Shown here piece after piece: positions 48,944 through 63,889 of a DNA stretch of 64,000 bases (position 1 is the stretch's first letter; each line of letters begins with the position of its first letter). The notes under the pieces are model-generated. The model saw only the letters and a program-made list of their open reading frames with translations. It was not told the origin of the DNA and ran no database searches. The DNA is from Candidatus Villigracilaceae bacterium (GTDB lineage Bacteria > Chloroflexota > Anaerolineae > Anaerolineales > Villigracilaceae). Position numbers and translations under genes: made by a program. The stretch is from positions 186,001-250,000 of the forward strand of contig JAPKMP010000003.1 of assembly GCA_026645935.1 (NCBI GenBank). Reading direction: 5' to 3'.

Positions 48944-51900
48944 TCAATTGCGGCGGCGTCTTTTCTTTTTACCGCCGGGTGTTCCGCCGATCTGCACCGA
49001 AGTCTCGCCCGGTGCTGAAGCCGTCTCAGTGGTTTCGATCGGCGTGATCTCCACGCGCCTTGGTCTTGCGGCAAACGCGCGGCTGATCACAAGTCCGCGC
49101 ACCTCTTCAAGCAATTGCGCGAACATTTCCGATGCGCGTCCTTTGTATTGTACCAGCGGGTCACGCTGGGCGTAAGCCTCGAGCCCGATCGATACCCTCA
49201 ACGCTTCGACCTTGGTCAAATATTCCACCCACAACTCGCTGAACGCGCCCAACAGCAACTGGCGATGGACTTCGTTCAACACATACTTACCCAACGCAGA
49301 GGATAGCTGCGCCGCCTCTTCCGCGCCGAGACTGGATACAGCGTCATTGAGTCTCCCCTCCCCGAAAGCGATTCGCGCCGCGGGACCAAAGTCCGCGAGT
49401 TTTGTCGCGTTCTGACTCAGGCGCGTAAATTCGCTCTGACCCCAGGTCTCGCGCAAGGCTTCCTCCGCCGCCTCGAGATGATTCATCACCTCGTCGGCGA
49501 TATCTTCGGCATCGCGCCCATCCAATAATTGCGCGGCGTGGAAGGCATAGGCAAACCGTGTGAAGACCTGTTTCACCTGCCGGTGAGTCTTCTGGTCAAA
49601 AGCAGTCCGCGTGCCCTGCGCGAGCGTGATCAGCAGGCGTAATTTGCCGGAATCCGTCGAAACATCCTCGCGCTGCAGCAGCACGTCGATATCGCGCGCG
49701 ATCTGGCTGTTCAGGCGTTCCCGTTTTTTTGCCAGCGCGTCGCGCGCCGTGTCGAGCAGAATATCCGAGAGATCATCCCAATCCGAAGGGAGCGGGCTCT
49801 GCCATTGAATCTGCTCGCCAACGCGAGTCTGAATCGCGCCGATGACCCTCGTCGCGCTGATGATCGTCAGCTGGCTGGAGAGCAATTCCTGAACATCGTC
49901 TTTTGCATCGTCAGGGTCGTCCGCCAGTTTTTTCAAAAGGTCGTTGTTCGGTTTGATGGCAAGCCTCGCAAGGCTGTTGATCTCTTCGATCAGTTTTTGC
50001 GGCTTGGCGTTATCCTCACGATCCCCAAGCGTTTGGAAGAAGGCATCCAGCGCCTCTTCGCGTTCGGAGATCTGCAGTTCGAGGGTTTCACCCGTTCGTT
50101 CGATCAACTGCTCGATGGCACGCAGGGCGTGGGCATATTCGGTTTCGATGGATTTGGAGATAAGGTCCAAGGTTGCATTTTTTATGCTCCCCGCGGCGGC
50201 TTGCGCGTTAATTTCATTAAGTAGCAGCTTGAACCCATACGAAGGGAATAATCCGTTCTTTGAGTCGAACGCAGGCTGGACCTGGTCCAACCACGCCAGC
50301 AAACGCCACGGACCTTCTTCATCCGCCAGCCCGGCTTCGACGCGTTTGGTCACTTCGGCATCGAGCATTTCCGCCACGTCGGCGCTCAAATCCTCTTTGA
50401 CGAATATCTTGTCGCGCTGTAAATAAATCTGCTGACGCTGGGTGTTCAGGACATCGTCGTATTCCAGGAGATGTTTGCGGACGTCAAAGTTTGCGCCTTC
50501 GATGCGATGCTGTGACTGTTCGATGACGCTCGCCACCATGCGCGCCTCCAGCGGGAGTGAGTCGTCCACTTTGAGGCGTTCCATCAATGCGCTGACCTGT
50601 GCCCCGCCCTGGATGCGCATCAGGTCGTCTTGCAGAGAGAGATAAAAGCGCGAAGATCCGGGGTCGCCCTGGCGGGCGGCGCGACCGCGCAGCTGATTGT
50701 CGATGCGGCGGGCTTCGTGACGTTCCGAGCCGAGGACGTGCAAACCGCCCAGTTCCTTCACGCTTTCCATATCGTCGAAGTAACCAAGGAAGTTTTTGAC
50801 TTCGGCTTCGTACAAACCATAGGCGGACAAATCGAGTTTCTTCAGGGCTTCGCGGCGTTCGTCGTGAGTCATGTCGAACGGGTCTTTGTAGCCGGATTTG
50901 CCCAACACGCGGTTGACCGCGGAGATGACTTCTTCAGCCAACTCACCGCCGAGTTTGATGTCCACGCCGCGGCCTGCCATGTTGGTGGCGATGGTCACCG
51001 CGCCGAACGCGCCCGCGCCTGCGATGATCTGCGACTCTTCGGTGTGGCGGCGGGCGTTCAAAACCTGATGCGCAACACCGCCCTGGAAGATCTTCTTCAA
51101 TCGTTCCTTTGCGGTTTCAGGCAGGCGCAATAATTCGAGCAGGGTGTTGAGATTCGTTTCGTCGTCGAGGCTGATGTTGGTCATGCCGTGCGGCTTGATG
51201 AAGGCGCGCAAGGCGTCGGGGGAGATTTTGTCGATGGGCTCGTTGAAAGGCACGAGGTCCGTAATGAGGCGCCCGTCTTCTTCGATATTATTCGCGCGCA
51301 CGTAGTGATCCCGCACCAGCATATACTGCATCAGGCGGCGCACAGGTTCGGCTTTTAGTCGATTGGAAAGTCTTTCAGAGGATTCAACGGAGGTCGTACC
51401 GACGAGCATCGGGCGGCCCAAGGCATTGAAGCGCACGATCTCCTGCACAATGGCGCGCAGTTTGGCTTCGACAGTGCGATAGATGACATCCGGATAATCT
51501 TTGCGGCGGTAAAAGAGCGCCGCAGTATCGCCAGCCTTTGCAAAATATGAATAGGCATATCCGTCTTCATCTTTGGTTTTGATCTCGACGAGGGAAGCCT
51601 TCTCGCCATATGCAAGATATTCGAGGTTCGGCGGGATCGGCGCGACTTCGAGTTTATAAATTTTGTTGAACTCTTCGGCTTCGGTGAGCGCGGTGCCGGT
51701 CATGCCTGCAAGTTTTTGATACATGCGATAGTAGTTCTGCAAAGTGACCGTGGCATACGTGACCGACTCCGGCTCGACCTTCACGCCTTCTTTCGCTTCC
51801 ACGGCTTGATGCAGACCATCGCTCCATCTTCGACCCGGCATGAGGCGCCCCGTCGACTCATCGATGATGATGACCTTTCCGCCCTGCACAAGATAATCCT

Positions 51901-52999
51901 TGTTGCGATGAAAGAGGAATTGCGCGCGCATGGATTGCTGTAAATATCCCATGAGACGCGCCTGCTCGGGGTTGAGGTCTTCGGGTCGGTCGGGATCGAT
52001 TAATTGCACGCCAAGCAGAGACTCGACCCGGCTCACGCCGATCTCGGTCAGGTTGATCGAGCGGGACTTTTCGTCCATCTCGAAGTCTTCCGGTTTGAGC
52101 TGCTTCGCGATCTGCGCCATGCGCCCGTACCATTCCAGATCGCCCGAGGCGGGACCGGAGATGATGAGCGGGGTACGCGCTTCGTCGATGAGCACGTTAT
52201 CGACTTCATCGACCATGGCGAAGTAATGCCCGCGTTGCACGCGGTTTTCAAGTTTCATCGCCATGTTGTCGCGCAGGTAGTCGAAGCCGAATTCCGAGTT
52301 GGTGCCAAAGGTGACATCCGCGCGGTAGGCATCGACCCGGTCCACCATCTTGAGGTGACGCTGGTCTTCCTGCGGGGCATCACGCTCGAAATCCACGATG
52401 AAGGCTTTCTTGCCGTTCTCGGTCACCGCCGCCATTTGCAGAACGCCAACGCTCAAGCCGAGCGCATGGTAGATGGGCGCCATCCAACGCGCATCGCGCC
52501 GCGCCAGATAATCGTTGACCGTAATCAGATGCACGCCACGTCCAAGCAGGGCATTGAGGTAGACGGGCATGGTGGCGACAAGAGTTTTACCTTCACCGGT
52601 GCGCATCTCCGCGATCGAGCCGCTGTGCAGCGAAGCGCCGCCGATGACCTGCACATCGTAGTGCCGCAAGCCAATTGTGCGCTTGGATGCCTCGCGTACC
52701 GCCGCAAAGGCTTCGGGCATCAGTTCGTCCAATATGCCTTGTTCGGCTTTGAATCTTTCCTTATCATCGCCCTCACCCCCGCCCCTCTCCCAGTGGGAGA
52801 GGGGTGTCCGAAGGACGGGGTGAGGGAGCATCTCTGCGATTCTCGCCTTGAATTCATCCGTTTTGGCGCGCAGGGCATCGTCGCTCAACGCCTCATATTC
52901 GGCCTCCAGCGCATTGACCTGCTCCACGAGCGGACTGTATTGTTCGACGGTCTTCCTTGTAGGGTCGCCGCTGAATAGTTTTACGAAGTTCTTGAGCAT
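48944..52999 (-). CDS. secA: Preprotein translocase ATPase SecA, extra long, with repeat insertion
   Basis: At 1351 residues it is far longer than the usual 800-1000. DEAD-motor motifs are complete: Walker A MRTGEGKTLVAT (about residues 132-143), Walker B VDEVDNVLIDEARTPLI, GMTGTALTEAEEF, LVGTTSVESSERL, TNMAGRGVDIKLGG and GRAARQGDPGSSRFYLS. Beyond the motor, about 450 helical residues follow (coiled-coil-rich wing/scaffold expansion), and the tail ends GGKKKRRRRN without the zinc-binding Cys motif common in SecA. Near residues 59-78 a dispersed repeat is inserted in frame (HPVLRTPLSHWERGGGEG). SecA drives Sec-dependent secretion at the membrane. AAGGGA lies five bases before the ATG, and an extended -10 element is upstream. 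Confidence 0.95.
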   Translation of the reverse strand: MLKNFVKLFSGDPTRKTVEQYSPLVEQVNALEAEYEALSDDALRAKTDEFKARIAEMLPHPVLRTPLSHWERGGGEGDDKERFKAEQGILDELMPEAFAAVREASKRTIGLRHYDVQVIGGASLHSGSIAEMRTGEGKTLVATMPVYLNALLGRGVHLITVNDYLARRDARWMAPIYHALGLSVGVLQMAAVTENGKKAFIVDFERDAPQEDQRHLKMVDRVDAYRADVTFGTNSEFGFDYLRDNMAMKLENRVQRGHYFAMVDEVDNVLIDEARTPLIISGPASGDLEWYGRMAQIAKQLKPEDFEMDEKSRSINLTEIGVSRVESLLGVQLIDPDRPEDLNPEQARLMGYLQQSMRAQFLFHRNKDYLVQGGKVIIIDESTGRLMPGRRWSDGLHQAVEAKEGVKVEPESVTYATVTLQNYYRMYQKLAGMTGTALTEAEEFNKIYKLEVAPIPPNLEYLAYGEKASLVEIKTKDEDGYAYSYFAKAGDTAALFYRRKDYPDVIYRTVEAKLRAIVQEIVRFNALGRPMLVGTTSVESSERLSNRLKAEPVRRLMQYMLVRDHYVRANNIEEDGRLITDLVPFNEPIDKISPDALRAFIKPHGMTNISLDDETNLNTLLELLRLPETAKERLKKIFQGGVAHQVLNARRHTEESQIIAGAGAFGAVTIATNMAGRGVDIKLGGELAEEVISAVNRVLGKSGYKDPFDMTHDERREALKKLDLSAYGLYEAEVKNFLGYFDDMESVKELGGLHVLGSERHEARRIDNQLRGRAARQGDPGSSRFYLSLQDDLMRIQGGAQVSALMERLKVDDSLPLEARMVASVIEQSQHRIEGANFDVRKHLLEYDDVLNTQRQQIYLQRDKIFVKEDLSADVAEMLDAEVTKRVEAGLADEEGPWRLLAWLDQVQPAFDSKNGLFPSYGFKLLLNEINAQAAAGSIKNATLDLISKSIETEYAHALRAIEQLIERTGETLELQISEREEALDAFFQTLGDREDNAKPQKLIEEINSLARLAIKPNNDLLKKLADDPDDAKDDVQELLSSQLTIISATRVIGAIQTRVGEQIQWQSPLPSDWDDLSDILLDTARDALAKKRERLNSQIARDIDVLLQREDVSTDSGKLRLLITLAQGTRTAFDQKTHRQVKQVFTRFAYAFHAAQLLDGRDAEDIADEVMNHLEAAEEALRETWGQSEFTRLSQNATKLADFGPAARIAFGEGRLNDAVSSLGAEEAAQLSSALGKYVLNEVHRQLLLGAFSELWVEYLTKVEALRVSIGLEAYAQRDPLVQYKGRASEMFAQLLEEVRGLVISRAFAARPRRVEITPIETTETASAPGETSVQIGGTPGGKKKRRRRN
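52770..52826 (-). repeat. Dispersed palindromic repeat inserted in frame in secA
   Basis: The 57-base stretch begins ccctcaccc and ends gggtgaggg and contains the inner palindrome cccctctcccagtgggagagggg. It is exactly 19 codons long, so secA stays open, and it encodes most of the peptide HPVLRTPLSHWERGGGEG. The same repeat type is intergenic at 34817-34898. Confidence 0.92.
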
Positions 53000-54186: not shown

Positions 54187-54306
54187 ATGGAAATTCATCA
54201 AAATCCAAGGCCACTTATCCCGTTGGCTGCTTCAGCCAGACCACCGCCGATGGCGAAAGAACTTTCTGATATCAACAACACTCAATTACCGAGAGCAGAA
54301 TTTTGA
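54187..54306 (+). CDS. Small proline-rich peptide, possible RiPP precursor
   Basis: A 39-residue ORF with AAAGGAG at proper distance from ATG 54187: MEIHQNPRPLIPLAASARPP followed by PMAKELSDINNTQLPRAEF. It is proline-rich in the first half and lacks cysteine, and no family is recognised. It is followed by the LysM-protein gene, whose ribosome site lies just downstream in the 35-base gap, so the two form a plus-strand unit. That unit converges on the radical SAM gene 770 bases away. A substrate role for that enzyme is only a guess from position; it could equally be a leader or regulatory peptide. Confidence 0.55.
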   Translation: MEIHQNPRPLIPLAASARPPPMAKELSDINNTQLPRAEF

Positions 54307-54341
54307 CATTCAGAAAAATAAAAAGAAAGGAGAAAGCTAAA

Positions 54342-54971
54342 ATGCGTAACCAAAGATATCAAAACGATTATGATGACTGGGAAGACGAGAGAAGGGATAA
54401 TCAATCTTTCTCAAGGAACCGCAAGGATAATTGGAGAAACAGCTCAGTAAACTATTGTCCCCGATGCGGAGAGCCCATTGACATTTACAGAAAATCACAG
54501 TATCCCCAGCGCCGTTACAATCAGAGCGAGAGGAGTTATACTCAATCTTATCAAAATCGTTCTTCATGCAGTTCGGTTGTGGTCGCAATCGCTGTCATCA
54601 TTGCCCTCGTGGGTATTCTTGCCTCATGCAATGTTGGCAGCTCTTCTGCGTCTTCTGATTTACCAACAGTCCAGGGTATGAATATCAAATACAATAACAT
54701 CGCATCACCCGAAGCAGAAAGCGTAGTCTATCAAATTAGTGAGCCAATATCTTCAATTGAAGGAAATGTTCAGGAAGTAAATCCACCTTCTCAACCAACT
54801 TCCAGGACATATATCGTAAAGCCTGGCGATACTGTATACCGCATAGCAGTAGAAATGCTTGGGGATGGGAGTCGCTGGATAGAGATTGAACAGCTTAATA
54901 ATTTAGGAAGATTGGCGAATGGATCTGTTTTAATTCACCCTGGACAGGTGTTAATATTGCCGGATCAATAG
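54342..54971 (+). CDS. Zinc-ribbon / single-TM / LysM protein
   Basis: ATG 54342 has AAAGGAG eight bases upstream, giving 209 residues; the frame is open further upstream but that part would overlap the small peptide gene. Residues 1-36 are acidic and polar. A two-Cys YCPRCGEP (C39, C42) recalls a zinc-ribbon N-terminal half. Residues ~78-95 form a membrane helix (SVVVAIAVIIALVGILASC), and the C-terminal LysM domain is YIVKPGDTVYRIAVEMLGDG...IHPGQVLILP (about 156-207), which binds peptidoglycan-like glycans outside the cell. The protein is therefore a membrane-anchored cell-wall-binding protein. The 100-base gap after it holds a weak hairpin (gaccaa-aagt-ttggtc) but no clear terminator. Confidence 0.85.
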   Translation: MRNQRYQNDYDDWEDERRDNQSFSRNRKDNWRNSSVNYCPRCGEPIDIYRKSQYPQRRYNQSERSYTQSYQNRSSCSSVVVAIAVIIALVGILASCNVGSSSASSDLPTVQGMNIKYNNIASPEAESVVYQISEPISSIEGNVQEVNPPSQPTSRTYIVKPGDTVYRIAVEMLGDGSRWIEIEQLNNLGRLANGSVLIHPGQVLILPDQ

Positions 54972-55072
54972 ACACAAAACTGTTCTATAATGATTCTGAC
55001 CAAAAGTTTGGTCTACTAAAATGACCAGGATACGCTCAGATTAGTCTAGTTTATGTGGGATTTGCCGAAGAA

Positions 55073-56617
55073 CTACCTATCAGGATCACAATCAAATTTA
55101 ACCGTATTAGTTCGCCGCCTTCTGGTCTTCAACGGTCTCTCATGCTCAATATCTCTTTTCGAATCATCAATTTCTTCTTCCTCATCAGCATCTGTCCGTT
55201 CAGGCGGAGGAATTTTTGGGTCACGAATGACACGTTTTGATTTCTCAGGACCACTATCTGGTTCGCAATCAAACAAAACCTTTCCATCGGAGGGCGGCTT
55301 TATTACGCGTTCAATCGTTGGTTCCGAATCGTCAATCTGTAAAGTTTCTTCTGAACCAATTAGCGGTTTCCACTGTCCTTTGTAAGGATCGTAAGTGCAT
55401 CGCGGCATTGAACCATGTAAATCGCCGCGAGCAATTGCCAGCGGGCGACAATCACCGCAAACGTAGCGGTATTCGCAATCTCTGCATATTTCGATTTGGT
55501 CTTTTGTTAAACCCCATAGCGATTTTAGTTTAGCGCTTTTGAGTATTTCACGAAGAGATTGCATTTTTACGTTTCCAACTACTTCGGTGCGCCCCATGAT
55601 ACAGGGAATGACATCGCCATTATTTGTAATAGTCAGCTTGCCTGCCCAGCAAGGATTCCATTGCCGATTATGCTCGTAGTCTTCACGGTTGGCAGAAAAT
55701 ACGGGAAATGTAAGCCATTTTTTTGATAAGACTTCTGGATTATCTGGCATCAAAGTTGCTTCAGAACCTGATCCAGTTTCACGAACAACATCTAGGCGAA
55801 CTTCTGAAAATCCAAGACTGTTTGCAAACACTGGCAAATTAATAATATCATTTTGGTTGGCAGCAACAGCAACACCAGCAATTCGCACTGGAATTGCATT
55901 TTCTTTTGCCCTTTTTAAACCAGCAAGTGTATACTCAAAACTGCCTCGCAATCCCGTTACAGCTTCATGCGTTTCAGCTTGTGTCCCATGTAAGGATACT
56001 GCCAAATGCACATCCTTTTCCGCAAAGGCTTTAACCTTTTGCTCTGTGAGTAATATACCGTTGGTGTACACTTCGATAAAGTCAAACCCTTTATCCTTGG
56101 CAATGTCAATAAGCGTTATCAAATCACGGTAAAGCAGAACTTCCCCGCCAGTAAACTGCGCTTCATGGCATCCCGACTCGGAAGCTTGTTGCAATACTCG
56201 CTCCCAATCTCGTAGTGTCATAGGTTCGCCAGTAGCATTCAAACGTTTCTGACCAAACAGCGCGGGATTCTGAGCCTCGGCATAACAGTGAGAACAGCCA
56301 AGATTACAGTTTTCCCCTAATTCCAACCAAAGGAAATCCAAAGGATGGTTGTCGGAATTACTTTGCTCACTCTGATTGACAACTGAACCACCACTCAGTT
56401 CAATGAGGCCAAGTCTTTGAAGCCATGTAAGAAACGGGACGTACTTGGAATTGATTTCTTCGACGGGAATTCTTCGATCCACTGACCGAATAATATCAGC
56501 TGCAATACTGTTCAGACTGTAGACATCCTCTGTGTGAAAATCATAAACCGCCGCACGTTGTGCGCCATAAACAACTTGAACATCAGGATGCCAAGCGAAG
56601 AAATGTGTTTTGCGCAT
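55073..56617 (-). CDS. Radical SAM/SPASM enzyme with repeated FDCxPD tail (probable peptide maturase)
   Basis: ATG 56617 has AAAGGAG six bases upstream (514 residues). The N-terminal ~80 residues (VYDFHTEDVYSLNSIAADII...) resemble PqqD-like peptide-recognition domains. The radical SAM cluster motif is ENCNLGCSHCYAE (C104, C108, C111). The SPASM domain has NPCWAGKLTITNNGDVIPC and later ICRDCEYRYVCGDCRP plus a final Cys, ligating auxiliary Fe-S clusters. Such enzymes install cross-links or thioethers in ribosomal peptides. The ~90-residue C-terminal tail is unusual: two units, RVIKPPSDGKVLFDCEPD and RVIRDP...NTVKFDCDPDR, separated by acidic and basic low-complexity sequence. These could be an attached peptide substrate, which is inference. 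It is the last gene of the minus-strand STAND operon. Confidence 0.9.
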   Translation of the reverse strand: MRKTHFFAWHPDVQVVYGAQRAAVYDFHTEDVYSLNSIAADIIRSVDRRIPVEEINSKYVPFLTWLQRLGLIELSGGSVVNQSEQSNSDNHPLDFLWLELGENCNLGCSHCYAEAQNPALFGQKRLNATGEPMTLRDWERVLQQASESGCHEAQFTGGEVLLYRDLITLIDIAKDKGFDFIEVYTNGILLTEQKVKAFAEKDVHLAVSLHGTQAETHEAVTGLRGSFEYTLAGLKRAKENAIPVRIAGVAVAANQNDIINLPVFANSLGFSEVRLDVVRETGSGSEATLMPDNPEVLSKKWLTFPVFSANREDYEHNRQWNPCWAGKLTITNNGDVIPCIMGRTEVVGNVKMQSLREILKSAKLKSLWGLTKDQIEICRDCEYRYVCGDCRPLAIARGDLHGSMPRCTYDPYKGQWKPLIGSEETLQIDDSEPTIERVIKPPSDGKVLFDCEPDSGPEKSKRVIRDPKIPPPERTDADEEEEIDDSKRDIEHERPLKTRRRRTNTVKFDCDPDR

Positions 56618-56667
56618 GGTGGCTCCTTTCATGACCTACCTAACCGACGCCAATGCGCTAAAGTATA

Positions 56668-59424
56668 CTACAAATCATCCATTGCTTTCACTGTCGCGAT
56701 AAATCCAGGATGGATTGACGCTAACTCTGAATGGCTCTCCCAGCACTCAATCAGGCGCTTACAGGCTCGGTGGCGTAATTCATCAGGCAAGCTGGGAAGC
56801 CATTCTCGCAAGAATTCCCGACGTTGGCGATATCTGATTGAGGAATATCTAGCCAGATAGACAAACATTTGGCAATAATGATCAGTCGCCTCATCAAACA
56901 ATTCGTATTTGACTTTTGTTCCCGACTTGGCTTGACGTTCAGCTATCCTACCTAGAATCTCTTCCAAGTCGGCATATGCAGGCTCAAATCGATACCCCTC
57001 ATTTTCGTACTGTCTCAGCCTTTTTTCCCATTGAGAAGTTTTTTCATGTTCGCCGCGCATTTCGGCAATTCTACAGAGTTCAACCAAACAAAGTGCAGAA
57101 TAGAGGGGCTGGTTGTTTTCATCACCTAGTTTTACTCCCTTCAATAGAAGTGCCTCGGCTTTTCCAAGATAACCTAATCGTTCGACATCGTTCAGTGCTA
57201 CACTTGCTTTTCCAATCAACAAGGCTCCCTGTTTTTGTAGCAGGTTAGGCAATTCCCGTTTCAAACCTTTTCCTACAAATACCTCCTCTGCTTCTTTATA
57301 GCGTTCTTCGGCAAATTCATATTTTCCTTCTAAATAATCCAGCCAACCAATATTCCTGGCGACAGATGCCATATCAACATCTGCGCGCAGGCCTTTCCAT
57401 ATATTATATGCCTCGTTGAACGAAATACGCGCCTTATCCAAACGTCCTTCATCTCGTTGCAACATTCCCAAGGCATTGATACTAAAGGCCTCACGTCCTC
57501 GTTGCCCAATCCTTTTTCTAATCGATAAACCCTGATGGATTCGGTCATAGGCGGTAGAAAAATCTCCCTTGTAACGAAGGGTCGTACCTATTTGAGTAGC
57601 AGCGGATGCCTGCCAGGTTTGGTCACCCTCATTATGGCTCAATACAAAACTTTGTTCAAATTCCTTTAGCGCTTCATCGTAATGTCCTCTATTCCTCAAC
57701 AAAAAGCCTATGGTGTTTAGGATTAAATAACGCTCAGGCAAAATACCATGAACGGTGGCAACCCCATTTTCTGAAAGCAAGTCTTTTTGAGCAGTCTCAT
57801 CACCTTTTTCAGCTTTTTGCGCAATCAGAAGAAGATCGTTGTATCCTTTATATGCCTCATGGAGCATTTTTACACCTTCTTCGAACTCTCCTAATCGCCC
57901 AAGTGCTGTAGCATAGGCAACTTTTGCTGTCAATTCGAAACGGCGTACTCCGCCAGAATCGTTCAAAACCTCATTAGCTAAATCTATCGCCCTCTTAGCA
58001 TCCCAGAATATTTCAAGTCCCATCCAGACTCGCGCTGAATTTTCTAGCGCCTTTAGGACTTTATCATACTTTCCAACTGCCTCTAGCGCTTTGTTGACGT
58101 ATTGTGCCATGTCAAGCAAAGAATCCATGTAGTCGTATTTGAATGCATGCCAGGAAACATCCAAGAGATCCCACAATTCCCCGTAAGCGCGTTCACGGTC
58201 TGCAAAAAGAAGATGGTACAGCCACTGATGTCGCAATGTGTCTAATTCGGGTGATTCGCGAGAGTTCTTTTCTCTAATTTTATTTATTTGCTCTTCGAAA
58301 TATTCTGCCAATTGCTGGCTGATATTTGTCCTTGTTTCCAAGGTGGGATCATTCACCGTCCATAGATCTTCGGATAATTTCTCTCGAAAGTAATCATGGA
58401 GGCGAGTTGTTCCTGTATCAGAGTGGTATTTAATATAAGGAAAACGAATTAATTTTTCCAAAAAAACGTCATAGGACTTTGTGTTAAGCTGATCAAAAGA
58501 GTGAATGAGTTTCAATGTTTTTGCTGAATATCCGTGATATACATGGGCCAACTCGAGAATCACAAAATTTTCAACGGTTTTTTCGCTGTGGGGATCAATT
58601 ATAAGTTTTTTCAAGAATTCTGATTCGGAAATAGTTGAAAGATCATTAGATTTAAGTCTGTCTTCTTTTAAAGCGAGGCATGCAAGTGCAACTAATAATG
58701 GCTGCCCTTCCTTCGTTAGTTGATGGAGTCTCTGTAGATGGGTTTTCATCTCATCAATCAGTAATCCACCTTCTTGAAGATACTGACGCATACTTTCCAC
58801 GCTAAGACCCTTAAGCTCGCAAAGGGAAGGTTGCTGTCCCTTCCAGGTGCTTGCATCGCCACCCACGAGGGGTACTCTGCGACCGCCTGCCACTACCCTG
58901 AAATATGGATAAAGTTTCGTTACGAATTTCTCAAAAAACCATATTCCTAGGTTTTCAACGACTTCTTCCACGGTGTCGACAAAAATTACATATGGTTTGC
59001 CTTTTCTTTTGGGGCGAATAGCATTTATCAAAGCCTCTTCGGATTGGTTGAGAGTAAATTGAAGAACATCTTGATCTGCCAGGTCACCTTTAGTTACTTC
59101 AGTTTGATATTGATCGAATGCGCTTTTATAATCTGTACTATTTTCAACTTGAAAACGCCTTGCTAATTCTGTTATCACGCCCCAACGAGTACGCAAGCCG
59201 TCATTGAAAAAGTCAACAATGCCGCTATGGTGTAATTTCCGGTTTTCGCACTCTTCCAAGCAGGCTTCCAGAAACTTCGACTTTCCCTGCCCAGCAGGGC
59301 CGATCACCCACATTAACCATGGAGCGTCTGGTTCATCCAGCATTTCGCGAAACTTCTTCAATTCCTCCTGGCGGCCAACAAATGGCAGACTCACAGGCTG
59401 CGGGTTTACAGATTTCGTTGCCAT
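56668..59424 (-). CDS. STAND-type P-loop ATPase with TPR-like repeats
   Basis: A 918-residue protein with AAGGAGG seven bases before its ATG. The N-terminal ATPase has FVGRQEELKKFREML, Walker A WVIGPAGQGKSKFLEAC and Walker B YVIFVDTVEEVVENL (residues ~15-170), then a winged-helix-like stretch (LHDYFREKLSEDLW). From about residue 400 there are repeated helical units with TPR signatures (ILNTIGFLLRNRGHYDEALKEF, ATQIGTTLRYKGDFSTAYDRI, SINALGMLQRDEGRLDKARISF). Large ATPases of this type act as switchable sensors, binding partners through the repeats. In this operon it lies between the second ATPase and the radical SAM enzyme, 51 bases from the latter, suggesting that it controls or senses the modified product. 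Confidence 0.88.
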   Translation of the reverse strand: MATKSVNPQPVSLPFVGRQEELKKFREMLDEPDAPWLMWVIGPAGQGKSKFLEACLEECENRKLHHSGIVDFFNDGLRTRWGVITELARRFQVENSTDYKSAFDQYQTEVTKGDLADQDVLQFTLNQSEEALINAIRPKRKGKPYVIFVDTVEEVVENLGIWFFEKFVTKLYPYFRVVAGGRRVPLVGGDASTWKGQQPSLCELKGLSVESMRQYLQEGGLLIDEMKTHLQRLHQLTKEGQPLLVALACLALKEDRLKSNDLSTISESEFLKKLIIDPHSEKTVENFVILELAHVYHGYSAKTLKLIHSFDQLNTKSYDVFLEKLIRFPYIKYHSDTGTTRLHDYFREKLSEDLWTVNDPTLETRTNISQQLAEYFEEQINKIREKNSRESPELDTLRHQWLYHLLFADRERAYGELWDLLDVSWHAFKYDYMDSLLDMAQYVNKALEAVGKYDKVLKALENSARVWMGLEIFWDAKRAIDLANEVLNDSGGVRRFELTAKVAYATALGRLGEFEEGVKMLHEAYKGYNDLLLIAQKAEKGDETAQKDLLSENGVATVHGILPERYLILNTIGFLLRNRGHYDEALKEFEQSFVLSHNEGDQTWQASAATQIGTTLRYKGDFSTAYDRIHQGLSIRKRIGQRGREAFSINALGMLQRDEGRLDKARISFNEAYNIWKGLRADVDMASVARNIGWLDYLEGKYEFAEERYKEAEEVFVGKGLKRELPNLLQKQGALLIGKASVALNDVERLGYLGKAEALLLKGVKLGDENNQPLYSALCLVELCRIAEMRGEHEKTSQWEKRLRQYENEGYRFEPAYADLEEILGRIAERQAKSGTKVKYELFDEATDHYCQMFVYLARYSSIRYRQRREFLREWLPSLPDELRHRACKRLIECWESHSELASIHPGFIATVKAMDDL

Positions 59425-59495
59425 GGGTACAACCTCCTTACTTATTAGCGATTACACAATAGTGACAGAAAACGGGAATTATTGCATTTGATTTT

Positions 59496-60980
59496 TCAAG
59501 AAGGGTTACTGAGATTATTTAGAGGCAATAACAATTTCTCCATATCGCCAGGATTTAATAAATTTTTGAATTCACGATCGCTTTTCAATTGCTCCTTCAA
59601 TTCAACGACCTCGTCTCTGCCCCGCACACCTTCAACCATTGGCTCGAGAATAGAAAGCAAATGGTCGGTTACGTTTTCATTCTTTTCGAGCAACAGAACA
59701 TTTAATTTATGATAAAGAGCCTCGACTATGTAATCCAAACGCTTTGCTTCAACGTTCTTCGCCCACTCACGATAGCGATCCGCCGCCCAATGCTGGATCG
59801 CTATATACTTTTCGGGCTGCCGGTACATTAATACTAACGCTACTATTTGGCGCAAGGGTTCTTCAAAAACATAACCTCGGCGCGAACGATCCCATGATAC
59901 AAGTCGCGTCTGCACCATTTTTTGAATTTCATACAGAGCGTCTGCCCCAATAGTCGCGGGCTTAAAATACTCAGGAAGCCATTTTGGTAATAATTCTGTA
60001 ACAACGGCAACGTTAAATAGGCGAAGAGGCGAAAGTATTTCCAAAGCCCGACTCAAATATTGATTCTCCGATTGTCCGAAATAATGTTTTAATTTGAGCA
60101 AATCCTCCAAAGACAAGATCAGACGTTCTTTTACTTGCGTCTCTTCAAGATCTGTGGGTTGTAATGTTTTTTGATTTTCCTGTTCTATCTCAAGAATGAC
60201 TTCCGCCAGCCTTGTCGTCGCCGCAGGTAATCCAAAAGAAATCATCTGGATAGCGTTTACAAGTTCGGGGCGTTCGGGAATCTGAGCTCGAGTTTGTTGC
60301 TCTTTAAAAGGCTCAAGAGGCAGCCAAAAGTACCTTGGGCGCAAAAAGAAGGGTTGGCAGTCAAGTGGTTGGCGGCTGGCCATTATCCATAGCACATACC
60401 CGCTGTCGGTGGTCGGAGCTTGTATTTTTTCCTGGAACCAACCAATAACATCTCGATCAGCCTGTTCAACTGAATCTAATACAAAAATTACAGGGCGTTT
60501 TTCGCGTTTTGATGAAAAAGACGAAACATACTCCACAAATGCCTTTATTAAATCGTTTTCAAGTTGTACTAGTTTCTTCCTTCCTGTAGTCTTGCTGCGG
60601 GCTTTTTCCCACTTCCGCTTTAATCCTTCAATTTCCGCAGATATACTGCTAGCTCTCTCTAATTCTACGATTAGATCAATTAGAATATTTCCGCGAAGTT
60701 CCGCGTCATATCTTCGATCTACATACTCCTTGTCGAAATCAATTCTTGCCAATGGAAGATTTGAATATCTTTCTTTTATGCGTGGATAGAGTGTTTCTCG
60801 AAGGAATGTTGATTTGCCTATTCCAGCCGTGCCAAACAGGGCAATTACGCTTTTAGGCAGAACTGGTTCAGAAATCCTCTTCCTTATTTCAGAATCAATT
60901 ACATCCCATTGATCCTCGCGATGAACAACATGACGTGGGGCATTGGGATACGACACGATAGAATCAGTTGAAGTCAACAT
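59496..60980 (-). CDS. STAND-like P-loop ATPase
   Basis: A 494-residue protein whose ATG at 60980 overlaps the stop codon of the small 48-aa gene, with GAAGGAG six bases upstream inside that gene, so translation is coupled. Walker A is VIALFGTAGIGKSTFLRETL and Walker B is KRPVIFVLDSVEQADRD, typical of AAA/STAND ATPases; a DxxDR-like IMASRQPLD motif follows. The C-terminal half has winged-helix-like and helical segments (LVSWDRSRRGYVFEEPLRQIV) and lacks TPR repeats. It is separated by 71 bases from the next, TPR-bearing ATPase, and the two are probably functional partners. No family name can be given. Confidence 0.82.
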   Translation of the reverse strand: MLTSTDSIVSYPNAPRHVVHREDQWDVIDSEIRKRISEPVLPKSVIALFGTAGIGKSTFLRETLYPRIKERYSNLPLARIDFDKEYVDRRYDAELRGNILIDLIVELERASSISAEIEGLKRKWEKARSKTTGRKKLVQLENDLIKAFVEYVSSFSSKREKRPVIFVLDSVEQADRDVIGWFQEKIQAPTTDSGYVLWIMASRQPLDCQPFFLRPRYFWLPLEPFKEQQTRAQIPERPELVNAIQMISFGLPAATTRLAEVILEIEQENQKTLQPTDLEETQVKERLILSLEDLLKLKHYFGQSENQYLSRALEILSPLRLFNVAVVTELLPKWLPEYFKPATIGADALYEIQKMVQTRLVSWDRSRRGYVFEEPLRQIVALVLMYRQPEKYIAIQHWAADRYREWAKNVEAKRLDYIVEALYHKLNVLLLEKNENVTDHLLSILEPMVEGVRGRDEVVELKEQLKSDREFKNLLNPGDMEKLLLPLNNLSNPS

Positions 60981-61120
60981 TGGTCTTCTCCTTCTTGAGA
61001 GACACCCTCGCTAACCAGGCAAATATTCCAGGAGAGTGAATCGGCGCTAGAATATACTTGTGGTAATGCTTCAAAGCATTGATTAGCAAGATAGCTTGGC
61101 CGGGCAGCGTTCAAATTCAT
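60974..61120 (-). CDS. 48-aa Cys-containing peptide, candidate RiPP precursor
   Basis: ATG 61120 has AAGGA seven bases upstream. It encodes MNLNAARPSYLANQCFEALP followed by QVYSSADSLSWNICLVSEGV and SQEGEDQC. There are three cysteines, one being the last residue, and a hydrophilic end that contains the ribosome site of the next gene. Its last codons overlap the start of the 494-aa ATPase by seven bases. No family is recognised. Being short, well translated and inside the radical SAM operon, it is a candidate substrate for that enzyme, but it could equally be a small regulatory or structural protein. Confidence 0.6.
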   Translation of the reverse strand: MNLNAARPSYLANQCFEALPQVYSSADSLSWNICLVSEGVSQEGEDQC

Positions 61121-61164
61121 TACAAAGTCCTTATTCGTTTTTGCATCAATTAAACACACTGTTC

Positions 61165-62304
61165 TTACTCAAGATACGGAAGAACAATCTTCTTTCCATA
61201 AACTTTCCCGAGGATTTCCTGTAACTCAACTATCAAAGTGATAGCATTATTCTCTGCCTCTTCAAGATTATGAATAATGACTTGAGGGACTAAGGCGCCA
61301 CCCCATTTTGCATATTGTTCTTTTGCGAGGGAAAGGTTTTTCTGGTTAATATCGAGCAATGACAATTTCTCTTCAACCTTGCCCGCCACCAAGAGCCAAG
61401 CAGCTTTTTCGATTTTCTCACTCAAAGCCGAATCTTTTGAGTTGATAGTAACAGTAAGTTCGGAACCAGACTCTTCGGGGGTGTTTGTTTTCACAGAAGG
61501 CGATGATAGATTCTCGGTCTTAGAGATATCTTGTGCCATTCTACGCTCCCTTCGTTCTTGTAATATTTTACTGCCTTCACCGAAAAGAAAATCTAAAATC
61601 TTCATTAGTATTGGGAGTGAAGCAGGATCAATCATTTTCTCATTCCTTTCTGAATCTGGCATAACTGAGAGTTCGTTAATTTTCTCATCAAGGTTTTTCC
61701 ACCATTTTTCATTTGGGTAAACACATCTTCTCAAGATTCTTGAACCGAGAGCAAGGTAATATTGTTTCTTTTTGTCGTCAAGCATATTAAAAAAGGAAAC
61801 CATTAAATCATTTACATGCTTTTCTTCTAGCAACTCAATCAGGTAAAATAACAATTCGTCACCAGGGTACCTTGTGCCATCATCAATAATTTCATTAAAA
61901 AATAGAGGGTTTTTGCTTTCTCCATTCTCATATGTTTCCTTTAGATAATTTGAGGCAAATAAAAATTGAACTGGAAGGCTAGAAAAGCAAATTAGTTTAT
62001 CGTCCTTTATGTCATCGTTGGTCAGCGCATTCATAATAACGTGACGTGATATCCACTCTTTGGTCTCACTCTCGGGATTGCTAGACCTATTTTCCATGAG
62101 TGTATCAATGAACTCTTCCTTTGACGCAATCTGTTTTTTTTCTAGTCGCGTTAGGTCGTGGGCGTATTTACTAATTCGAGCTATGACATCGGGACCCAAG
62201 TCGTTAATCACTAATTGCGGAGCAATCTGACTTAACAGCAAACTGAATTTAGTGCGCTTGTTGTGTTGACGACTTAGGCGCGATCTTCCTGGAAGATTGG
62301 TCAT
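61165..62304 (-). CDS. Unrecognised 379-aa protein in STAND/radical SAM operon
   Basis: No family is recognised. The sequence is rich in Glu, Lys, Asn and Leu and is predominantly helical. Residues ~1-235 look globular (LLLSQIAPQLVINDLGPDVI, WISRHVIMNALTNDDI, FYLIELLEEKHVNDLM), with no membrane helix and no obvious P-loop or catalytic motif. A Ser/Glu/Thr-rich low-complexity linker follows (SKTENLSSPSVKTNTPEESG), then a C-terminal segment with KIEKAAWLLVAGKVEEKLSLL and ILGKVYGKKIVLPYLE. The ATG at 62304 is 17 bases after the upstream stop and lacks a strong ribosome site, suggesting coupling. Possibly an adaptor or structural component of the operon. Confidence 0.72.
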   Translation of the reverse strand: MTNLPGRSRLSRQHNKRTKFSLLLSQIAPQLVINDLGPDVIARISKYAHDLTRLEKKQIASKEEFIDTLMENRSSNPESETKEWISRHVIMNALTNDDIKDDKLICFSSLPVQFLFASNYLKETYENGESKNPLFFNEIIDDGTRYPGDELLFYLIELLEEKHVNDLMVSFFNMLDDKKKQYYLALGSRILRRCVYPNEKWWKNLDEKINELSVMPDSERNEKMIDPASLPILMKILDFLFGEGSKILQERRERRMAQDISKTENLSSPSVKTNTPEESGSELTVTINSKDSALSEKIEKAAWLLVAGKVEEKLSLLDINQKNLSLAKEQYAKWGGALVPQVIIHNLEEAENNAITLIVELQEILGKVYGKKIVLPYLE

Positions 62305-62321
62305 TATATAAATCCATGATT

Positions 62322-63833
62322 TTATTCAAGAACATATCCTTTTTCCGAGACTTTAACTAAGTATTGTGGGTGGCTTGGATCAACTTCCACTACTTTACGA
62401 ATCCTCTTGATTAATTGATCTATTCGACCATTGTCTGTCAAACGGTTGGTTGATGATTCGTTGTAAACTGCATAACGAAGTGAAGAATAAGAACACACCT
62501 TGCCTCTTTGTTCGATAAGGTATTCCAATAACTTACGTTGGAGCGCAGGCAATTGCTTCAGTTTTTTCGAGCCGCGCCAAACATAATGGCTTTCATCAAT
62601 TCTTATTGTCAGAAGCGTTTCCTCAACAACGCTTTGAACAATTCTTGCTTCATTATGGAAGCTCTCAACAGAATTTTCTAAATCTTTTTTTGAAATGAGC
62701 AACTTGTTTGATGCCGATGTTCTTGTATGATGCCAATATAATAACCACTCAGCCAGTCTCATCATGTTTCGTGGCGATCCTTTGGCTAAAGAGGCAAGTT
62801 TGGCAACTAAAGATCCTTCCAAATCGGGTTCGCATACAACATCAAGGCTTGGCAGGGAACCCTTGGTAAAAACTTCCACTCTTCTGTCAAGCAATTGCCG
62901 TAACTCGTCTGCACTCCAGTTAATATGACGAATCATCAATCTGTCCGCGCGAAATCCAGGTTGTTCCATAATAACGTCCATAATCGCTGGAGTAAGGAAA
63001 AATTTAAAAGCCGTCTTCTCAAGTTCCATAAGGTATAAGTTTGTAACCAGGGATGCGAACAAATTGGCCGCGGAATGAGGGTTTGAAGACATGGGCTCCC
63101 GCTCATCTACTCGATCAATTAAGATGTAGACTGCTCTAAAGCCCGCTAATTCCGCTAATAACACAAAGTGACCCAAATCATCGTCTGCCGACGTGCTTTT
63201 CTTACTAAGTTGTTCAGGTGCAAGTTCTAATAGTTCGATCAAAAAACGTATAAAGACATCGCCTCTCAAAATTTTTTTTGAGCGAAGAGCGTCTGAATTT
63301 AATTTTTTGCTATGGTAACCAATCTTGTGCAACCATTTATCTAACCCAACATCGGTGTTCAAATCAGTGTATCTTGCTAAATACTCTGCTAATTTCTTGC
63401 GAAATCCCAATGAAAAGGATTCAATGCTTTTTGGATTCTTTGCCACCCTTTCAAGCAACAGAGGTATGGCTTCTTTTAATATCATTTCGATATGATGGTC
63501 AGTTGTCACCTTCCCGTTGTCATCGGCATGTTGTAAAGGAGCAGAAAACTCAAGATATGGAACCGGAAGAATTAAGCCATTCGGTCGGCTAGCATAACAA
63601 TTCCATTCGATGGCACGACGGGTTGTGGTTTTCCCACAGCCTCTTTCCGCCACCAAAAATGCGCTTGTTGGGTGCAATGCGTCTCCCATGACATCATCAA
63701 AACCAGGGTGCTGAACAAAATACTGTAATAATTCCGGTTCTGGCTCGCGCGATGCTTCTCGAGTTGAGAAAGGGTTTCCTAACTTAAACCCTATTTGTTG
63801 CAGCCATGCATTGGGAACGCGAATGTCTTCCAT
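62322..63833 (-). CDS. P-loop ATPase with C-terminal OmpR-type winged helix
   Basis: A 503-residue protein. The ATPase region has AFLVAERGCGKTTTRRAIEW (Walker A-like GCGKTT, near residue 65) and AVYILIDRVDEREPM as Walker B, followed by a helical lid region and SPRNMMRLAEWLLYWHHT. Residues ~420-503 form a trans_reg_C/OmpR-type winged helix: LPALQRKLLEYLIEQRGKVC...RIDQLIKRIRKVVEVD, ending PQYLVKVSEKGYVLE. It is thus a STAND-like transcription regulator and, as first gene of the minus-strand operon, probably autoregulates the unit. The ATG lies about 40 bases after an extended -10 promoter. An internal restart is not suggested by any ribosome site. Confidence 0.87.
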   Translation of the reverse strand: MEDIRVPNAWLQQIGFKLGNPFSTREASREPEPELLQYFVQHPGFDDVMGDALHPTSAFLVAERGCGKTTTRRAIEWNCYASRPNGLILPVPYLEFSAPLQHADDNGKVTTDHHIEMILKEAIPLLLERVAKNPKSIESFSLGFRKKLAEYLARYTDLNTDVGLDKWLHKIGYHSKKLNSDALRSKKILRGDVFIRFLIELLELAPEQLSKKSTSADDDLGHFVLLAELAGFRAVYILIDRVDEREPMSSNPHSAANLFASLVTNLYLMELEKTAFKFFLTPAIMDVIMEQPGFRADRLMIRHINWSADELRQLLDRRVEVFTKGSLPSLDVVCEPDLEGSLVAKLASLAKGSPRNMMRLAEWLLYWHHTRTSASNKLLISKKDLENSVESFHNEARIVQSVVEETLLTIRIDESHYVWRGSKKLKQLPALQRKLLEYLIEQRGKVCSYSSLRYAVYNESSTNRLTDNGRIDQLIKRIRKVVEVDPSHPQYLVKVSEKGYVLE

Positions 63834-63880
63834 ATGCCGTCATCTACAATTCAACCTCGAAGTTTCAATTTCTTTCCTAT

Positions 63881-63889
63881 AGTATAGCA
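63881..63889 (-). promoter_or_regulatory. Extended -10 promoter of the STAND/radical SAM operon
   Basis: On the minus strand TGCTATACT (extended -10), with the operon's first ATG 47 bases further on. The winged-helix protein may bind near it. The remaining stretch to 64000 has no gene and no further signal that I can see. Confidence 0.5.

Follow-up and report, generated by a model that had tools for sequence, protein, structure and literature searches.

The window analysed here is a stretch of 64,000 nucleotides from contig JAPKMP010000003.1 of a Candidatus Villigracilaceae bacterium (Chloroflexota), and its subject is a tight operon of six minus-strand open reading frames (ORFs) running from 63833 to 55073, as established by an ORF and strand check of the window. 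Three of the ORFs encode ATPases (a winged-helix ATPase, an AAA_16-like ATPase and an ATPase with tetratricopeptide repeats, the TPR-ATPase) and the last encodes a radical S-adenosylmethionine (SAM) enzyme with a SPASM domain; the others are a protein of 379 amino acids (aa) and a short ORF of 48 aa (Table 1). On balance, this operon is probably a divergent member of a recurring cassette of nucleoside triphosphatases (NTPases) and radical SAM/SPASM enzymes, with an acidic-cysteine core as the most likely substrate.

Successive genes of the operon are separated by gaps of 17, 71 and 35 bp and by a 184-bp spacer which harbours the 48-aa ORF. In the radical SAM gene the ATG at 56617 is preceded by AAAGGAG and is a likelier start than 56632, and the N-terminus of the enzyme gives a weak PqqD-like match (E 0.097). 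The AAA_16 match of the 494-aa ATPase (30.9 bits) stays below the Pfam cut-off of 32.6, and the winged-helix ATPase matches the anti-phage model DS41_1 below its threshold. The original prediction had described a single minus-strand operon, and its ORFs, order and strand were confirmed, as were a winged-helix P-loop ATPase (PF00486 and the ORC-CDC6-like PF24389 were found), an unrecognised protein (no Pfam family matches the 379 aa), two further ATPases, one with TPR (AAA_16, below cut-off, on the second; AAA_16 and TPR_12 on the third), and a SPASM radical SAM enzyme (PF04055 and SPASM were matched). The flanks, identified by eye, are secA (48944-52999) and a threonyl-tRNA synthetase gene beyond the window, thus no defence island is evident. 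PADLOC returned weak generic matches to the window ATPases and viperin-type matches to the radical SAM domain of the enzyme.

Table 1. Features of the window operon and, in the last three rows, genes that follow the enzyme in relatives
Feature	Position	Strand	Basis
Winged-helix ATPase, 503 aa: ORC/CDC6-like P-loop and C-terminal OmpR-type winged helix	62322..63833	-	PF24389, PF00486; NF053860 206 bits
379-aa protein without family match	61165..62304	-	Pfam, NCBIfam
C-terminal domain of the 379-aa protein (residues 220-373), possibly adaptor-like	61186..61647	-	recurrence in same-family genomes
48-aa ORF, probably no gene	60974..61120	-	unconserved, chance length
AAA_16-like ATPase ('ATP2'), 494 aa	59496..60980	-	Pfam; profile of relatives
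TPR-ATPase (AAA_16 and TPR_12), 918 aa	56668..59424	-	Pfam; profile of relatives
Radical SAM/SPASM enzyme, 519 aa (514 aa from 56617)	55073..56632	-	PF04055, SPASM
FDCEPD, first acidic-cysteine motif of the enzyme tail	55256..55273	-	both tail Cys in FDC, 1/300000 shuffles
FDCDPD, second motif, then a single R before the stop	55079..55096	-	same shuffle test; region predicted disordered
SIR2-like and TIR (24.2 bits, cut-off 28)	L126:11630-13027		SIR2 match below cut-off
SIR2-like and PNP_UDP_1 (above cut-off)	L151:11532-13223		no SIR2 match listed; N-terminus related to L126 and L152
SIR2-like and PNP_UDP_1 (above cut-off)	L152:11292-13103		SIR2 match below cut-off

Recurrence of the ATPases with a radical SAM enzyme

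Single-sequence searches among 249 genomes detected the AAA_16-like ATPase in two other genomes (E 1e-10) and the winged-helix ATPase in seven (E 1e-20), two genomes being common to both searches. At five of the seven loci examined (L036-L042) the radical SAM gene adjoins the ATPases (L036, L038, L039, L041 and L042); L037 lies at a contig edge and L040 is without a radical SAM gene. L039 contains many N and gave no AAA_16-like ATPase, and the TPR-ATPase of L042, which had no BLAST match, was assigned by position before profiles were built. The window TPR-ATPase matched its own genome alone among 61 at 1e-15. The single-sequence searches with the TPR-ATPase and the radical SAM enzyme overlooked a cassette that the searches with the other ATPases and the profiles revealed, therefore absence from a single-sequence search is weak evidence. 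A profile of the AAA_16-like ATPase (A1, E 1e-8) matched 42 of the 321 genomes of the phylum, the window's own included, and at 18 of the 26 A1 places examined a radical SAM gene lies near the cassette; at three more (L080, L083, L089) the contig stops inside it. Scored against profiles made without them, the window proteins reach 308 bits (winged-helix ATPase), 212 bits (AAA_16-like ATPase) and 251 bits (TPR-ATPase). At L076:6237-10751 a single protein of 1504 aa is matched by both the AAA_16-like ATPase and the TPR-ATPase profiles, a natural fusion, and one genome of the window's family (G164) has two cassettes, L092 and L201, which differ in enzyme type and in the motif-bearing protein.

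From the side of the enzyme, an alignment of one lineage (type 2, alignment A3) was scanned against a collection of 84,980 species, and the best 80 of 310 confirmed relatives were used. As this query was derived from loci found through the ATPases, and eight or more of the 80 coincide with places found earlier (e.g. L126/L090, L143/L041, L151/L081), the two starting points are not independent. In 56 of 60 loci a TPR-ATPase is found no more than 1.5 kb from the radical SAM gene, either side counted (16 loci with less than 3 kb upstream and four without a gene call were excluded); the four exceptions have it at 2.6 kb (L173), at 2.0 kb (L176) or not at all (L164, L168). An AAA_16-like ATPase is present within 8 kb of the enzyme in 37 of 49 loci; for a winged-helix/ORC-like ATPase the figure is 20 of 46, counted up to 9.5 kb. 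By the same test, none of the eight other radical SAM loci of the window's own genome (L001-L008, about 1.5 kb on each side) gave an ATPase match. The core of the cassette is a TPR-ATPase with a radical SAM enzyme, usually joined by an AAA_16-like ATPase; the winged-helix ATPase is optional. It can be said that the joint unit of ATPases and radical SAM/SPASM enzyme, proposed from the window, does recur as a module, seen from the ATPase places and from the enzyme loci. Its supposed restriction to Chloroflexota did not hold, since the cassette is also found in Cyanobacteria, Actinomycetota and a few others: the best 80 comprise, going by record titles, 60 loci of Chloroflexota or its subgroups, nine cyanobacterial, six actinobacterial and one each assigned to Nitrospirae, Thiotrichaceae, Albibeggiatoa, 'archaeon' and 'bacterium', the host genomes including named strains of Nostoc, Thermogemmatispora and Dictyobacter.

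The acidic-cysteine motif

Type-2 enzymes carry an acidic-cysteine motif, most often DCAC, in an N-terminal extension ahead of a region that resembles a recognition element (RRE) of ribosomally synthesised and post-translationally modified peptides (RiPPs). Among 46 enzymes, taken from the 80 loci for full length and variety and with starts fixed by eye, 38 have [DENQ]CxC in this extension, in up to four copies (1000 shuffles: mean 0.92, maximum 5), and 45 have acid-Cys, one aligned Cys being invariant. In a set of 78 loci, which omits the truncated L142 and L156, retains the fragments L153 and L177 as misses and takes extensions from stop to stop, so that untranslated codons may be included, a wider pattern occurs in 65 loci (500 shuffles: mean 3.8, maximum 10) and acid-Cys in 74 (mean 37.8, maximum 48). 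Seven Nostoc-type loci have one replacement-variable and eight silent-only variable codons in the 16-codon motif stretch, and 17 and seven, respectively, in the 35 codons after it; judged by codon changes, protein-level constraint acts on the motif in this one set of close relatives. L092, L099 and L101 have further copies in the linker that joins the RRE-like region to the radical SAM domain.

The second enzyme lineage, type 1, is without the long extension and was studied in 14 loci (L036, L038, L042, L077, L199-L208); of the 24 genomes with a type-1 match three were already in the set, ten were added and 11 were left out. The motif ends separate small ORFs in four of these loci (L038, L042, L077 and L199, the last with two such ORFs; the ends read DCACG, DCACE, NCACD, DCPACD and DCACSVRR), and stands at the enzyme N-terminus in six (L036, L200, L202, L203, L204, L206), and in one locus (L201) an ATPase carries it threefold at its N-terminus; L205 and L207 are truncated and L208 has neither placement. 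Among the ten added loci, L199, L201, L202 and L204 have ATPase profile matches next to the enzyme and L206 has weak ones, and none was found on the short contigs L203, L205, L207 and L208. Neither NCBIfam nor, under E 0.2, Pfam gave a match for the five separate ORFs and the N-terminus of the type-2 enzyme L118. A filtered scan of the loci without a radical SAM gene found no motif-ending ORF in L040, L093, L095, L097 and L098, and two unconvincing ones in L096. The association of the genes, the motif and the motif's change of place between genes are established at the level of sequence. As separate observations, an ORF resembling a GNAT acetyltransferase was seen by eye between the peptide and the enzyme in L038 and L077 (in the interval from TPR-ATPase to radical SAM gene), and a Cys-rich small ORF with its end near CENCDTKCDCICYSYSDE lies beside a related radical SAM gene at L208:4300-4400 (+), on a short contig without ATPases.

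In the window itself the original prediction had placed the peptide element in the 48-aa ORF. An acidic-cysteine element does accompany the module, but it is not this ORF and most often forms part of the enzyme chain. None of 13 relatives matched the 48-aa ORF, which, against all collected loci, matched only the window's own DNA and, weakly, L106 (E 0.65). An ORF of this length arises in 161 of 2000 shuffled spacers, and the acidic tail QEGED of the 48-aa ORF arises from reading through the following gene's Shine-Dalgarno stretch. The ORF was rejected as a precursor because it is unconserved and of chance-level length, and lack of conservation at the protein level was the very finding that the original prediction had named as speaking against itself. 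A 39-aa ORF at 54187 (+), with a good ribosome-binding site and directly upstream of a LysM-domain gene (region 54187-54971), was rejected as well: its sole match in 14 relatives (E 0.09) contains an internal stop, and conservation is not clear.

The window enzyme bears its candidate motif at the other end. Both cysteines of its C-terminal tail fall within FDC[ED]PD, motifs which were absent from the original prediction; two FDC in the tail were equalled in one of 300000 shuffles, the pattern having been picked after inspection, and by plain 8-mer identity the tail repeat is unremarkable (22 of 1000 shuffles equal it). FDC[ED]PD may be equivalent to DCAC, a view helped by the ORF of L042, which holds FDCDCAC. 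As a putative RiPP core beside its modifying enzyme, the relatives offer a conserved acidic-cysteine motif with an RRE-like part, and the window enzyme FDC repeats only. The radical SAM and SPASM cysteines are retained. A tree of 15 rows separates type-1, type-2 and window enzymes, the last as a long branch. A single-sequence scan of genome contigs with the window enzyme confirmed no relative, a search at E 1e-30 matched its own genome alone among 396 genomes of the class, and a tblastn search of plasmids brought PqqE and TIGR04053 enzymes among the best 20 of 361 records. The structure model of the window enzyme is too poor (predicted local distance difference test, pLDDT, 60.8) to support any claim that the tail docks.

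The type-2 enzyme L118 gave a better model (pLDDT 88.4). In it a short strand at residues 9-11, within a conserved hydrophobic stretch, is followed by the low-confidence DCAC stretch, then by three strands and two helices in RRE-like order, and then by the catalytic and SPASM parts. Among solved structures, anSME, the sactipeptide enzyme 5wgg and ChlB come closest (Z 30 to 32), and the predicted fold resembles peptide-modifying SPASM enzymes. Among NCBIfam models PapB (NF047865) is the best for two type-2 enzymes, at 133.1 and 131.6 bits, with its cut-off of 340 missed in both cases. PapB ranthipeptide maturases follow a Cys-acidic substrate logic.

Known systems, proposed mechanism and alternatives

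The logic of the cassette resembles that of the FxsABT and AP-ATPase peptide systems, and the tests for membership in FxsABT failed. With FxsABT and HaaA-HaaT it shares a TPR protein and a radical SAM peptide maturase. The window TPR-ATPase gives weak matches in its TPR region to HaaT (47 bits) and FxSxx_TPR (44.8 bits), missing the cut-offs of 1125 and 300; the FxsB model scores 59.9 bits on L092 and 56.8 on L078 against a cut-off of 370, and FxsB is not among 25 of 76 families listed for the window enzyme, whose best model is TIGR04053 (105.5 bits, cut-off 395). No FxSxx C-terminus was found, as the original prediction had held: the separate ORFs end in the acidic-cysteine motif, the window 48-aa ORF in EDQC and the enzyme tail in FDCDPDR. 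Borosins are methyltransferases fused to their own core. They are alike in having the modifying enzyme and the core on one chain; they differ in using a methyltransferase and not a radical SAM enzyme, and the modification in the present cassette is putative.

The systems with FxSxx, RxD and acidic peptides treated by Kaur et al. 2020 (PMC7159879) are interpreted there as a conflict system, and a metallopeptidase, a radical SAM-SPASM protein and an AP-ATPase-TPR protein accompany the FxSxx-type peptides. Like the present cassette, they combine a small peptide, a radical SAM-SPASM enzyme (FxSxx type) and a P-loop TPR ATPase in one neighbourhood. They differ in having a zincin metallopeptidase and vWA/VMAP parts in their core, whereas the motif of the present cassette is of the acidic-cysteine kind and most often part of the enzyme chain, and its ATPases include an AAA_16-like one and at times winged-helix ones. 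No zincin was found in the window operon (Pfam) or among 25 of 43 families listed for 30 genes downstream of the enzymes in relatives, the upstream genes being unsurveyed. The anti-phage protein DS-41 (NF053860; DefensePredictor, PMC13092281) is matched by residues 19-396 of the window winged-helix ATPase with 206 bits; the cut-off of 370 was missed, and the window protein differs in its C-terminal winged helix and its partners.

The best reading would be a RiPP-like, NTPase-coupled signalling or conflict system, in which the radical SAM enzyme would act on an acidic-cysteine core, in many cases in cis, and modify it. The NTPase switches would sense some cue, and the TPR-ATPase would work together with the radical SAM enzyme. 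The putative core, typically DCxC, would be placed on the enzyme N-terminus, in the linker before the radical SAM domain, on the C-terminal tail (as in the window) or on a small separate peptide, and the enzyme would cross-link it in cis or in trans, a Cys-based cross-link being the first chemical guess. The modified core may activate or carry the response, with the ATPases gating or reading it; the winged-helix ATPase might control the operon or sense DNA, and the output might be defence or non-self signalling. A wider and rather doubtful proposal, offered tentatively, is an unrecognised bacterial immune-like class in which NTPase switches are combined with a radical SAM enzyme that modifies a tag on its own chain; the tag would be movable to peptides, to an ATPase or to the C-terminus, and enzyme, substrate and signal could be one protein.

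Several observations weigh against a modified acidic-cysteine core in an NTPase-coupled cassette. The chemistry of the enzyme and the function of the cassette are deduced wholly from sequence, and the motif patterns were defined post hoc, after inspection. In five of the 26 ATPase loci (L093, L095-L098) the stretch of DNA covered has no radical SAM profile match, and the motif-bearing enzyme of L200 has no ATPase profile match in 20 kb. Some enzymes of the 78-locus set have a single acidic Cys alone and L127 has none, and AhbD (the heme b synthase model), not PapB, is the best model for three type-1 enzymes, well below its cut-off. The window has no evident effector, and among the 30 downstream genes no family was seen more than twice. 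The window enzyme is without DCxC and scores 99 bits against the cassette-enzyme profile; a similar profile gives 105 and 85 bits for two other radical SAM proteins of its genome. As the window enzyme thus stands no closer to those of the cassette than an ordinary radical SAM protein does, membership of the window rests on the ATPases and gene order, and confidence was slightly lowered on this account.

This standing of the enzyme would suit a window operon that is unrelated or decayed, a generic radical SAM enzyme beside ATPases with FDC repeats of no substrate role; the enzyme forms its own long branch, scores like an ordinary radical SAM protein and had no close homologue in genome and plasmid searches. 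Nevertheless, the ATPases and gene order fit the cassette, the enzyme still has its radical SAM and SPASM cysteines and both tail Cys stand within FDC[ED]PD, which makes this quite unlikely. The acidic-cysteine element could also be a flexible metal- or redox-binding arm (an extra Fe-S cluster, Zn or a thiol switch) coupling the metal or oxidative state to the ATPases, as it is Cys-rich, often has two or more CxC copies and lies in stretches of low model confidence, and as substrate modification is itself a deduction. That the motif also ends separate small ORFs and sits on an ATPase, and that many copies have a single Cys, better suited to a core than to a metal site, renders the arm unlikely. 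It is very unlikely that the genes serve the biosynthesis of a modified peptide for secretion, under regulation by the ATPases: a radical SAM/SPASM enzyme, an RRE-like part and a core-like motif are at hand, however most cores are part of the enzyme chain, and the 30 downstream genes show no recurrent transporter or peptidase (single ABC and C39 matches among 25 of 43 families listed).

Under the reading of a modified acidic-cysteine core, the cassette would offer a testable bridge between peptide modification and ATPases resembling nucleotide-binding leucine-rich-repeat (NLR) proteins. The cassette is defined across several phyla, its enzyme, motif and peptides staying below every NCBIfam cut-off consulted. 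No description of it, or of radical SAM chemistry acting in cis on a fused core, as suggested here, was found in open-access literature.

Neighbouring genes and the 379-aa protein

In three Ktedonobacteria the gene after the enzyme joins a related SIR2-like N-terminal part to a TIR or a PNP_UDP_1 part (Table 1). Effectors usually have exchangeable ends. A GNAT gene confirmed by Pfam lies downstream of the enzyme at L101:11836-12711.

The position of the 379-aa protein is occupied in some relatives by larger ATPase-like proteins. Its C-terminal domain forms standalone small ORFs adjoining TPR-ATPase-like genes in five genomes of the same family, and a sixth genome has it joined to an EAD7/AAA_16 protein (L017-L022 for the six). 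It is possibly an undescribed adaptor domain of STAND (signal transduction ATPases with numerous domains) systems. In L018 the neighbour of the standalone domain is an NB-ARC-TPR protein, confirmed by Pfam, with a TIR gene on the other side.

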